This document shows, one piece after another, positions 52,765 through 55,206 of a stretch of DNA of 64,000 nt (position 1 is its first letter; each line of letters begins with the position of its first letter). Below the pieces are notes generated by a model. It ran no database searches and had not been told where the DNA came from. It saw only the letters and a list, made by a program, of their open reading frames with translations. The position numbers and the translations under genes were made by a program. This DNA is from Candidatus Kapaibacterium sp. (lineage in GTDB: Bacteria > Bacteroidota > Ignavibacteria > Kapaibacteriales > UBA2268). Where the stretch lies: the NCBI GenBank assembly GCA_023957315.1, contig JAMLHE010000007.1, forward strand, positions 1 to 64,000, in the 5' to 3' direction.

Positions 52765-52800
52765 AAACATCGCCCACGGTTGAAACCGTGGGCGATGTTT
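52765..52800. repeat. perfect 17-bp palindrome with the CCCACGGTT core
   Basis: Positions 52765-52781 and 52784-52800 are perfect inverted copies around GA. The core CCCACGGTT/AACCGTGGG is shared with the two copies near 49.7 kb. On the minus strand a T-rich stretch follows after about ten bases, so it could terminate the Mor-like operon. Confidence 0.85.
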
Positions 52801-52827
52801 GCCAAGGTATTTTAGGATTAAGAAGAC

Positions 52828-52871
52828 AAATCCCCCTGCTCGCAAGCTCACTCTTTGCCAAAGGGGGATTT
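52828..52871. repeat. AAATCCCCCT inverted repeat
   Basis: AAATCCCCCT (52828-52837) and its complement (52862-52871) flank a 24-base spacer. This form resembles small non-coding repeat elements seen in Bacteroidota intergenic DNA. No coding sequence lies between 52668 and 52887 apart from these repeats. Confidence 0.6.
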
Positions 52872-52887
52872 CTTGTTGTATTCAGTC

Positions 52888-53151
52888 CTACGCCTTCATT
52901 TCGGCGATTTTGTTTCGGAGGTATTGTTCGGAGACTCCGAGTTGGATGGCGGTGTATTTTAGGGGTTTGTCCTTGTTTTGATTGTAGAATCTGATTACAA
53001 ATCTGTCAAATTTGCTCATCTTTGGGATGTAGAATTGTGTTCCGCCCAAATGACGCAGTATTTGGCGCATTGCTTCTTCGCCACAAACATCTGCCAGCAG
53101 CTGCATGTCGGGCGTCACTTCGTCAATCGTGATTATATCATAAACATCCAT
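52888..53151 (-). CDS. Mor-family-like transcription activator
   Basis: An 87-residue protein resembling the phage Mu Mor/C activator domain: LADVCGEEAMRQILRHLGGTQFYIPK, followed by a C-terminal helix-turn-helix (TAIQLGVSEQYLRNKIAEM). The start was set at ATG 53151, which follows GAGGAGG; the longer frame from 53172 is possible. In phages Mor activates the middle promoter as a dimer. Here it overlaps the upstream small gene and lies divergent from a repressor pair. Confidence 0.65.
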   Translation of the reverse strand: MDVYDIITIDEVTPDMQLLADVCGEEAMRQILRHLGGTQFYIPKMSKFDRFVIRFYNQNKDKPLKYTAIQLGVSEQYLRNKIAEMKA

Positions 53152-53446
53152 AAAAATCCTCCTCTTCTTCAAAATTATTAGAATCTAACAAAAAATTGTC
53201 GTTACGTAAGATTGTGTTGTTTTCCATGTAGTCCTCGAATAGAAATATGAGGTCGTCGGCGTTGCTCGCTTCGATGAAGCCTTTCTCGGTCAGCAATTTG
53301 ACCATTTTCCCGAGAAAGTAAAGTGCGATTGCGTGCTCTAATTCAAGTTCATCGTTTTGCCGGGTGGATGCCGGACACACCAGCCGCACTAAGATAAGCC
53401 CGTCACTGACATCGAGTGAATCCGCGATTGAATGAGTATTTGACAT
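53138..53446 (-). CDS. small acidic protein, unknown
   Basis: A 102-residue acidic protein with a helical centre (ELEHAIALYFLGKMVKLLTEKGF) and an Asp/Glu/Asn-rich end. GGAG precedes the ATG. It overlaps the Mor-like start by 14 bases and is first in that minus-strand operon. The small size and partner suggest a regulatory or antirepressor-type partner, but no family is recognised. Confidence 0.55.
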   Translation of the reverse strand: MSNTHSIADSLDVSDGLILVRLVCPASTRQNDELELEHAIALYFLGKMVKLLTEKGFIEASNADDLIFLFEDYMENNTILRNDNFLLDSNNFEEEEDFYGCL

Positions 53447-53496
53447 AATTTACTCCAAAAATTTTGATATTTAAGAAAAATGCTTTATATTGCATA

Positions 53497-53509
53497 TGTA
53501 ATTATTACA
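53497..53509. promoter_or_regulatory. operator-like inverted repeat O1
   Basis: TGTAAT-T-ATTACA, a perfect 6-bp inverted repeat with one central base. A second overlapping repeat TTACA-N5-TGTAA covers 53505-53519. It lies between the divergent Mor-like and HTH genes, just upstream of the HTH gene. Confidence 0.6.
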
Positions 53510-53532
53510 CATTATGTAAATATTTTACGAAA

Positions 53533-53563
53533 CAAAAATATGTAGAATCTACACAATAAGCAA
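53533..53563 (-). promoter_or_regulatory. promoter of the Mor-like operon with operator O2 inside
   Basis: The minus strand reads TTG (53563-53561), 20 bases, then TATTTTTG (53540-53533). The spacer contains O2, TGTAGA-A-TCTACA (53541-53553), the same design as O1 44 bases away. A repressor bound at O2 would block this promoter. Confidence 0.6.
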
Positions 53564-53585
53564 GAAAAAAATTTAGAAAATATTT

Positions 53586-54002
53586 ATGAATGATTATAAT
53601 AATGAAGTAGGGCGCCGATTACGGCTTATACGCAATGTGTTCAACGAAGGCGGCAAATTGACTGCCGACCAGTTTGCTTTCTTGCTTGGCGAAACGCGCG
53701 ATAAAATCACGAATTATGAGCTTGGCAGGGCTTCGATTCCCATCAGATTACTCTATGAGCTGTATAATAGGGGCATCAATCCAATTTATCTCATCACCGG
53801 CGAAGGTTCCTGCTTTGCAACAAATAAAGCAGGTAAAGATTTTGCTGCTAAAATGCTCTATCGGCTCGAAAACGGCTATATCACTGACCGCAAAACGATT
53901 GCAATGTTAAGCGAATTTGTGGGCGATTTTGATAGCCTTAAATCTAAACAGCCCGTGCATGTTTATAAAGTCTCTGCCGGACGTTTGGAGAAGGATAAAT
54001 AG
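53586..54002 (+). CDS. HTH DNA-binding protein (CI/XRE-like)
   Basis: A 138-residue protein. Its first 75 residues form an XRE/CI-type helix-turn-helix: GRRLRLIRNVFNEGG, LTADQFAFLLGETRDKITNYELGRASIPIRLL, then NPIYLITGEG. It lacks the S24 peptidase domain that phage CI repressors carry in the same chain; the S24 domain is encoded by the next gene, which starts on the following base. O1 and O2 upstream are likely binding sites. Known from family: lysogeny-type repressor. Inferred: repression of the divergent Mor-like operon. Confidence 0.72.
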   Translation: MNDYNNEVGRRLRLIRNVFNEGGKLTADQFAFLLGETRDKITNYELGRASIPIRLLYELYNRGINPIYLITGEGSCFATNKAGKDFAAKMLYRLENGYITDRKTIAMLSEFVGDFDSLKSKQPVHVYKVSAGRLEKDK

Positions 54003-54638
54003 ATGGCAATTAGCGACGAAGTTCGGGATTATGACAAAGATGAAATCAGCTTCATGAATGAGGTCAGGAAAAATTATCTGCTCAGTTTGAAGGGGCTCAA
54101 ACACGCCGAGCTTGAACTCGAGCGACTGCATAAGTTTGCAATTAACAAAAGTATGCTCGAAAATTTTGAACTTGCCATTGAAACGGCTGAATCGGAAATT
54201 AATGTAGCCGGAAGATTCGCACCGGACATAAACACGCTCAATCACGGTTTCCAGGATTTATCGCCGGATTTACGGCATCGAATTTTGGAATATTTCCCAA
54301 CAACAACTGAAAATTTCAAAACTACGAACGAAGACTTATTCGACAGAGTTGGAATTTCGGAAGCAGATTTAGTCGTTTGCGATGTTGTGGGCGATTCGAT
54401 GATTGGAGCCGGAATCAAATCAAGTGACCTTTTATTGGCAAATTCATTTGAAATTCCTGAAAACGGTAAGATTGTAATCGCTGAAATTGATGGCAAACTA
54501 TACGTCAAACGTTACTCAGTGATAGGTGGAGTAGTACATCTTATTTCTGAAAACCCTGATTATGAACCGATTATAATCAATTCGCACCACAAATTCAGAA
54601 TAAAAGGTGTTGTCAAACACATCCTGAGTAAAATTTAA
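54003..54638 (+). CDS. S24/LexA-like self-cleaving peptidase domain protein
   Basis: A 211-residue protein. Residues 1-100 are helical; residues 115-211 are an S24 domain with the Ser132 nucleophile (VVGDSMIGAG) and Lys169 (KLYVKRY), the LexA/CI dyad. A possible Ala-Gly scissile pair is at 69-70, but its distance to Ser132 is longer than in LexA. No helix-turn-helix is present. It abuts the HTH gene with no gap, so the two may form a split CI-type repressor responsive to RecA. Confidence 0.72.
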   Translation: MAISDEVRDYDKDEISFMNEVRKNYLLSLKGLKHAELELERLHKFAINKSMLENFELAIETAESEINVAGRFAPDINTLNHGFQDLSPDLRHRILEYFPTTTENFKTTNEDLFDRVGISEADLVVCDVVGDSMIGAGIKSSDLLLANSFEIPENGKIVIAEIDGKLYVKRYSVIGGVVHLISENPDYEPIIINSHHKFRIKGVVKHILSKI

Positions 54639-54735: not shown

Positions 54736-55206
54736 ATGAACAGACCGTATGTATTAGTTGTAGATGATAACAAAATAACTACGAAATTGCTTAAACGCTA
54801 TCTCGAAGCAAATGGATACGAAGCCGGTGAGGCTTTTGACGGAATTGAGTGTTTAGAGAAAGTGGATGCAAGAATGCCCGACGCCATAGTCTTAGACGTG
54901 ATGATGCCACGAATGGACGGGTACGAAACGGTTTCCAAATTAAAGGAGAACGGCGACACAAGACATATTCCCGTGGTTATTGTCACCGCTCTAAATGATA
55001 TTCCGAATCAATTAAAATCTATCGAATCCGGTGGCGACGATTTCTTGAGCAAACCAATCGAAGAAAAGTTACTTGTTGCAAAAGTCAAATTGATGACTAA
55101 TTTGAATCTGGCAAACAAAGAACTTAATAAGTACAAGAGCCTCTTAAATGATTTAGTGGACGGCAAAATCTCGAAAGATGATGCTAAGAAAGCTTTAGAA
55201 CTGTAA
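54736..55206 (+). CDS. single-domain response regulator
   Basis: A 156-residue CheY/PleD-type receiver. It has the acidic pair DD at 10-11 (VVDDNK), phospho-acceptor Asp54 (IVLDVMMP), Thr (VTALND) and Lys (SKPIE), all in place. About 35 residues past the receiver form a coiled tail (NKELNKYKSLLNDLVDG) without a recognised output domain. The histidine kinase partner is not in the window. Confidence 0.9.
   Translation: MNRPYVLVVDDNKITTKLLKRYLEANGYEAGEAFDGIECLEKVDARMPDAIVLDVMMPRMDGYETVSKLKENGDTRHIPVVIVTALNDIPNQLKSIESGGDDFLSKPIEEKLLVAKVKLMTNLNLANKELNKYKSLLNDLVDGKISKDDAKKALEL

Follow-up and report, generated by a model that had tools for sequence, protein, structure and literature searches.

The window, by which we mean the whole 64,000-nucleotide stretch of DNA that was analysed, belongs to a 3.55-Mb genome (G000) and carries four open reading frames arranged around a 139-bp intergenic region. 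On the forward strand, the gene for an HTH repressor subunit of 138 aa (53586–54002) is followed immediately by the gene for an S24 Ser/Lys peptidase subunit of 211 aa (54003–54638), the TAG stop of the former (54000–54002) abutting the ATG of the latter (54003) in the same frame. The same in-frame abutment is seen in G001, in G002 and, with TAA as the stop, in G012. The reverse strand encodes a divergent operon in which a small acidic protein of 102 aa (53138–53446) comes first and a Mor-like activator second (52888–53151; 87 aa counted from the ATG at 53151), the two genes overlapping by 14 bp. The back-to-back and divergent arrangement of the original prediction is thus present as described. 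All four ORFs are under purifying selection within the window's genus (dN/dS 0.02–0.16) and are therefore not chance ORFs; by this measure the HTH protein (0.02–0.06) evolves much more slowly than the S24 protein (0.15–0.16), and the values are 0.03–0.04 for the Mor-like and 0.09–0.16 for the acidic protein. Downstream of the S24 gene lies a CheY-like response regulator (54736–55206, forward strand), a conserved neighbour in several genera that probably has its own promoter. At the other end of the cassette, two strong inverted repeats at 52770–52880, between the Mor-like gene and a C39-type peptidase-like gene, are possibly terminators or repeat elements.

The Mor-like protein matches Pfam Mor (PF08765; E 7.8e-6, 26.3 bits against a cut-off of 24.9) as well as the late activators of PHROG 836 (E 1.4e-7). 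Eleven of 60 Mor-like relatives pass the Pfam cut-off and the remainder lie just below it. The acidic protein gave no match in Pfam, PHROG or NCBIfam; its counterparts evolve fast and sit ahead of the Mor-like gene in most genera.

The HTH protein consists of an XRE/CI-type HTH domain (residues ~1–75), a linker (84–128) and the C-terminal motif V129-S130-A131-G132. Its matches to Pfam HTH_19 and HTH_3 are below threshold, and the XRE-type fold comes from model comparison. The linker is hypervariable (entropy ~3 bits per column) and ends in the tail motif [VA][AS]-A-G, in which A131 is invariant and G132 is present in 24 of 25 aligned members. Altogether, 37 of 39 HTH tails carry A-G (28/30 in the first set and 9/9 in further genomes); G007 has A-K in its place, and G029 has lost it. 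The residues that are kept correspond to P1 Ala and P1′ Gly, as at the cleavage sites of LexA and CI, and in LexA the scissile bond is Ala84-Gly85 (PMC3834820). Judged by its sequence, the conserved motif of the HTH tail has the form of a LexA/CI scissile site. Since this predicted site lies on the HTH protein and not on the S24 protein, any cleavage would be expected to take place between two polypeptides.

The S24 protein is composed of an N-domain of ~95 aa and an S24 catalytic domain (PF00717 Peptidase_S24, E 1.9e-20), with UmuD-like and CI-like PHROGs among its matches. Ser132 and Lys169, the catalytic residues named in the original prediction, are intact, and the Ser/Lys dyad is kept in 30 of 31 S24 partners. 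None of these 31 proteins has A-G or C-G 31–40 residues before the Ser. The window's protein aligns with the Pfam S24 profile from position 30 onwards and the split proteins from positions 17–30; in the one single-chain homologue that was scanned, from the sister families, the match runs from position 1. The strand with the cleavage site is therefore missing from the window's S24 protein, and it is present on the HTH protein. Single-chain homologues of the sister families carry [RAS]VSAG 35–36 residues before the Ser; read as one chain, the window pair has its A-G ~140 residues before the Ser, owing to the ~95-aa domain. The position of VSAG and the starts of the S24 matches therefore indicate that the chain is interrupted just after the cleavage site and that the peptidase gained its N-domain: in this family, a CI/LexA chain seems to have been split just behind the cleavage site. 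As two ORFs, the pair stands outside the single-chain CI/LexA class, in which HTH and S24 domains share one polypeptide, and the S24 gene of most genera differs in frame from the HTH gene, overlaps it or is found elsewhere in the genome. The idea that the two proteins together equal one CI repressor is partly correct: the S24 protein has an extra N-domain, which is absent from CI and LexA, and the cleavage-site strand is placed on the HTH protein.

Several variants of the S24 protein were seen among the relatives. The gene product is shortened in G005, and the S24 relative of genus g25 (G026, G321 and G391) is 176 aa long. Glu takes the place of both Ser and Lys in G026, yet the A-G tail of the HTH protein is retained; the g25 protein could be a pseudo-peptidase partner. 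UmuD-like S24 proteins are also present in most genomes. Elsewhere in the window's genome, two HTH-less S24 proteins are encoded in tandem, flanked by a MiaB/MtaB-like gene and the gene for RNase H (G000:C3:160913-161695); several relatives also have pairs of S24 genes separated by a few hundred bp.

For structure modelling, the G000 HTH and S24 proteins were joined through the in-frame stop, with TAG read as an artificial Q. The AlphaFold model (mean pLDDT 79.5, ~45 in the tail) sets the tail strand 125–130 against the S24 domain, which has the LexA/UmuD′/CI fold (Z 13–16). By VIA-align, the match starts at model residue 124, equivalent to residue 77 of LexA, 83 of P. aeruginosa LexA and 104 of lambda CI; if the alignment is ungapped, Ala131 would fall on LexA Ala84 and CI Ala111. 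A second AlphaFold model, of the G020 proteins, has the same domains with the tail undocked and part of the S24 chain in that place. Of the two, the G000 model hints that the tail may dock in the S24 domain.

The intergenic region between the HTH and acidic genes holds two operators. O1 (TGTA-ATTAT-TACA, 53497–53509) sits where transcription of the HTH-S24 operon probably begins, just downstream of a candidate promoter of Bacteroidota type on the forward strand (53463–53492) that consists of TTTG (53463–53466), 19 bp and TATATTG (53486–53492). The Bacteroidota promoter consensus is TTTG/TAnnTTTG, to whose second part TATATTG is a weak match. Together with the genes nearby, the kind of promoter suggests that the window comes from a Bacteroidota-related lineage. 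O2 (TGTA-GAATC-TACA, 53541–53553) is 44 bp (2 × 22) from O1, in the stretch that separates the -33 and -7 elements of the divergent promoter. This candidate acidic-Mor promoter (53533–53564, reverse strand) is made up of CTTG (53564–53561), 20 bp that include O2, and TATTTTTG (53540–53533), a full match to TAnnTTTG; the element GCAAAAWTATGTANNNNNTACAT around it recurs in relatives. Across the family, 26 of 29 upstream regions contain GTA-N5-TAC, with 47 sites in all, versus 0.8 sites expected (maximum 4) from shuffles preserving dinucleotide content. When spacers of 0 to 12 were compared, those other than N5 yielded 0–3 sites each. Paired dyads are 22 bp (13 times), 44 bp (5 times) or 66 bp (once) apart, and these multiples of 22 bp correspond to two-turn helical phasing. 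At one locus (G024:C245), the HTH gene has apparently been swapped for that of a different HTH protein and the operator seems to have changed (TTTTACTAAAACGTAAAA), with the Mor-like and S24 genes kept.

The suggestion that the switch controls genes elsewhere through further operator copies was not borne out. Three congeneric genomes each contain the double operator only once, and strict single sites (TGTARWNWYTACA) occur 15, 12 and 12 times per genome compared with 15, 15 and 9 times for a reversed-pattern control, that is, without excess. The clearest regulon candidate shared by two genomes was rejected after ~3 kb around every other site had been read: TGTAATTATTACA precedes an ABC metal-transporter-like operon (G000:C22:14573), a similar dyad occupies the same locus in G001 (G001:C14:2564), and the site resembles, and probably is, a metal-regulator box unrelated to the switch. 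Another dyad, TGTAAAATTTACA (G000:C4:218061), is situated near a phage-type repressor fragment and a tail-completion/Neck1-family gene (E 2.2e-17), in what is probably a prophage. TGTA-N5-TACA is absent from the recA and umuDC loci, the search at other genes revealed no copy of the operator and umuD-type promoters have no clear dyad in common, so that it is solely from the absence of LexA that we infer an SOS role of the switch. The Mor-like protein might still exert indirect control over SOS genes.

A canonical LexA above the curated cut-off was detected in none of 36 family genomes and in about half of 24 sampled genomes of sister families, several of these families possessing it. The S24 protein itself scores 57.9 bits with the canonical LexA model (TIGR00498), below the curated cut-off of 110.95. 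Nearly full-length LexA-like proteins just under the cut-off are encoded in two members, at G018:C232:8303-8953 (109.6 bits) and G029:C134:2949-3593 (100.6 bits). In G029 the LexA-like protein coincides with the loss of the A-G tail and of the S24 partner.

The HTH gene is single-copy and confined to one bacterial family, where it occurs in more than 20 genera. A first search yielded a single HTH orthologue in each of 30 out of 36 family genomes; with a profile, 34 of 37 family members gave matches of E ≤ 1e-39, the best value outside the family being 2.6e-16. The Mor-like gene is conserved in 29 of 30 family loci and divergent from the HTH gene in 28 of the 30; it is in tandem in G022 and was not found in G025. 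The S24 gene adjoins the HTH gene in 23 of 30 loci, and in six of the seven non-adjacent cases an S24 protein with the same N-domain is encoded elsewhere in the genome, G029 being without one. The genes around the window's cassette (a C39-type peptidase-like protein, the response regulator, a lipoprotein and a RarA-like ATPase) recur in other genera. In particular, the order HTH-S24-response regulator is common to several genera and the lipoprotein gene after the regulator recurs too, indicating vertical inheritance.

Such a single-copy chromosomal locus with conserved flanking genes, found in nearly all family genomes, agrees with the original prediction of a phage-type switch outside a prophage. 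Among the immediate neighbours checked there are no phage structural, integrase or replication genes, as predicted, and the search of relatives turned up a family-wide locus instead of a cassette restricted to prophages. Neither the HTH nor the Mor-like protein has a match in INPHARED (50,697 phage records), and of 13 viral contigs that fit an HTH peptide pattern none carries a relative of the HTH protein; the idea that phages carry this same cassette found no support in these records. A tailocin or other contractile system was likewise rejected as the target of the Mor-like protein, Phage_sheath_1 being absent from 40 of 40 genomes and matching in control genomes. Related HTH, S24, N-domain and Mor-like genes do occur together on a mobile element in G001 (C66), G021 (C58) and G034 (C1), which also carries phage-type replication genes (Sak4-like annealase, primase/helicase). 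Its HTH protein ends in ..ALAGQKIK, its UmuD-like S24 protein has 143 aa, and a further protein of 214 aa joins the chromosomal N-domain (HMM E 1.9e-11) to a degenerate S24 domain. By gene content, the element is a plausible phage-like relative of the source of the switch. Domestication of the chromosomal switch fits with these relatives, and the module was probably derived from a phage-like mobile element.

We favour, at a probability of roughly 0.55, the reading that the locus encodes a chromosomally fixed split CI/LexA (S24) repressor that faces an activator under its control and is cleaved in trans. The HTH protein would bind the operators as dimers; it would repress the acidic-Mor operon, O2 being between the -33 and -7 elements, and would limit its own synthesis through O1 at the start point. 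Its tail would enter the cleft of the S24 protein, much as LexA accommodates its own cleavage strand in cis, which would make the S24 protein both a partner and a latent protease. Upon formation of RecA filaments, the S24 protein would cut the HTH tail in trans at Ala131-Gly132; the repressor would be lost, and the new -SA or -AA end could be a signal for ClpXP. The Mor-like protein would then be made and might activate its target promoters in the manner of PrtR/PrtN. A more far-reaching version is possible but doubtful: that a LexA-type repressor split within its peptidase domain, with trans cleavage as the damage signal, has replaced LexA family-wide and acts through a phage-derived activator relay and not through direct derepression of repair genes.

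The tail and its partner can also be read without cutting in trans. In one such reading, which we regard as unlikely, the S24 protein is a non-cutting co-repressor that grips the A-G tail of the HTH protein (dimerisation, cooperativity), and induction occurs by release. Genus g25, which keeps A-G in the tail although both catalytic residues of the G026 protein are Glu, suggests that the tail may serve binding and not cutting, and the slow evolution of the HTH protein relative to the S24 protein in the window's genus points in the same direction. A dyad preserved in all but one of the S24 partners would, however, be needless for pure binding, and the tail residues under constraint are those on either side of the LexA and CI scissile bonds. 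Alternatively, the tail might do another job, being recognised by a UmuD-like S24 protein or by a general protease, for example, with the linked S24 protein acting on something else. UmuD-like proteins are at hand in most genomes and g25 keeps its tail without an active partner, but partners with the same N-domain are retained at unlinked positions in every case where the linkage is broken and the tail kept, and G029 loses tail and partner together; we consider this reading quite unlikely.

Two further explanations appear very improbable. In the window's genus, readthrough or restart at TAG-ATG could produce what is effectively a single-chain CI, in keeping with the in-frame abutment of stop and start codons in G000, G001, G002 and G012 (TAA). 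The S24 gene is elsewhere, overlapping or out of frame in most genera, however, and the ~95-aa domain would leave A-G ~140 residues before the Ser and not 35. Nor does the locus look like the remains of a mobile element, now decaying or silent and without a function: related parts are found on an element in G001, G021 and G034, g25 has a degenerate S24 protein and that of G005 is shortened, but dN/dS values of 0.02–0.16, the conservation of the locus in more than 20 genera, the conserved operators and the shared neighbours all speak against it.

LexA, CI and UmuD are textbook examples of self-cutting proteins and, to our knowledge, most work on cleavage in trans has used engineered fragments or dealt with it as a side reaction. 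What is new here is the placement of a conserved, predicted scissile motif on the tail of the HTH protein and of the Ser/Lys dyad on a separate S24 protein. Our literature searches, which covered papers outside subscription journals, returned no report of a natural split LexA or CI. If trans cleavage holds true, substrate and enzyme would be available as separate co-inherited genes, and binding, RecA activation and catalysis could be measured separately. It would also show the takeover of a phage switch by a host that lost LexA, and supply a family that has no apparent DNA-damage control with a definite candidate for it.

The two-gene logic is shared with ImmR/ImmA and DdrO/IrrE, in which a protease distinct from the HTH repressor inactivates it. 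In those modules the enzyme is a zinc metallopeptidase, whereas here it would be a Ser/Lys S24 protein of the LexA fold. With lambda CI and E. coli LexA the window pair has in common an HTH, an A-G scissile bond (in our case predicted) and a Ser/Lys dyad, and as in lambda the operators are placed at helical spacing between divergent promoters. CI and LexA differ in that self-cleavage takes place in one chain and the peptidase has no extra N-domain. The Mor and C activators of Mu belong to the same sequence family (Pfam Mor, PHROG 836) as the small divergent protein, but the Mor-like gene is chromosomal family-wide and lies outside a transposing phage. PrtN is, as far as we know, not a Mor relative. 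PrtR/PrtN of Pseudomonas aeruginosa likewise has an S24-type repressor that controls an activator gene, the activator in turn driving distant genes (PMC8609362); PrtR is one chain. In Francisella, FddR is a phage S24 repressor taken over by the host, acting on its own gene and on divergent ones; it is a single S24 protein with the motif GTG-N11-CAC, and the abstract mentions no Mor-like activator (PMC13148647). Non-canonical LexA proteins of Bacteroidetes are CI-derived chromosomal S24 repressors, taken as phage-derived, that occur where LexA is absent and bind CTAA-N5-TTAG, GGA-N5-TCC or TTAC-AAATT-GTAA (PMC8565304). They share with the window switch a CI-type HTH combined with S24, N5-spaced palindromic operators, a chromosomal location and LexA-less hosts. 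These proteins are single polypeptides, many of which control recA, umuDC and other SOS genes (PMC8565304), whereas the window switch consists of two proteins and has its operators only at its own and the divergent promoter.
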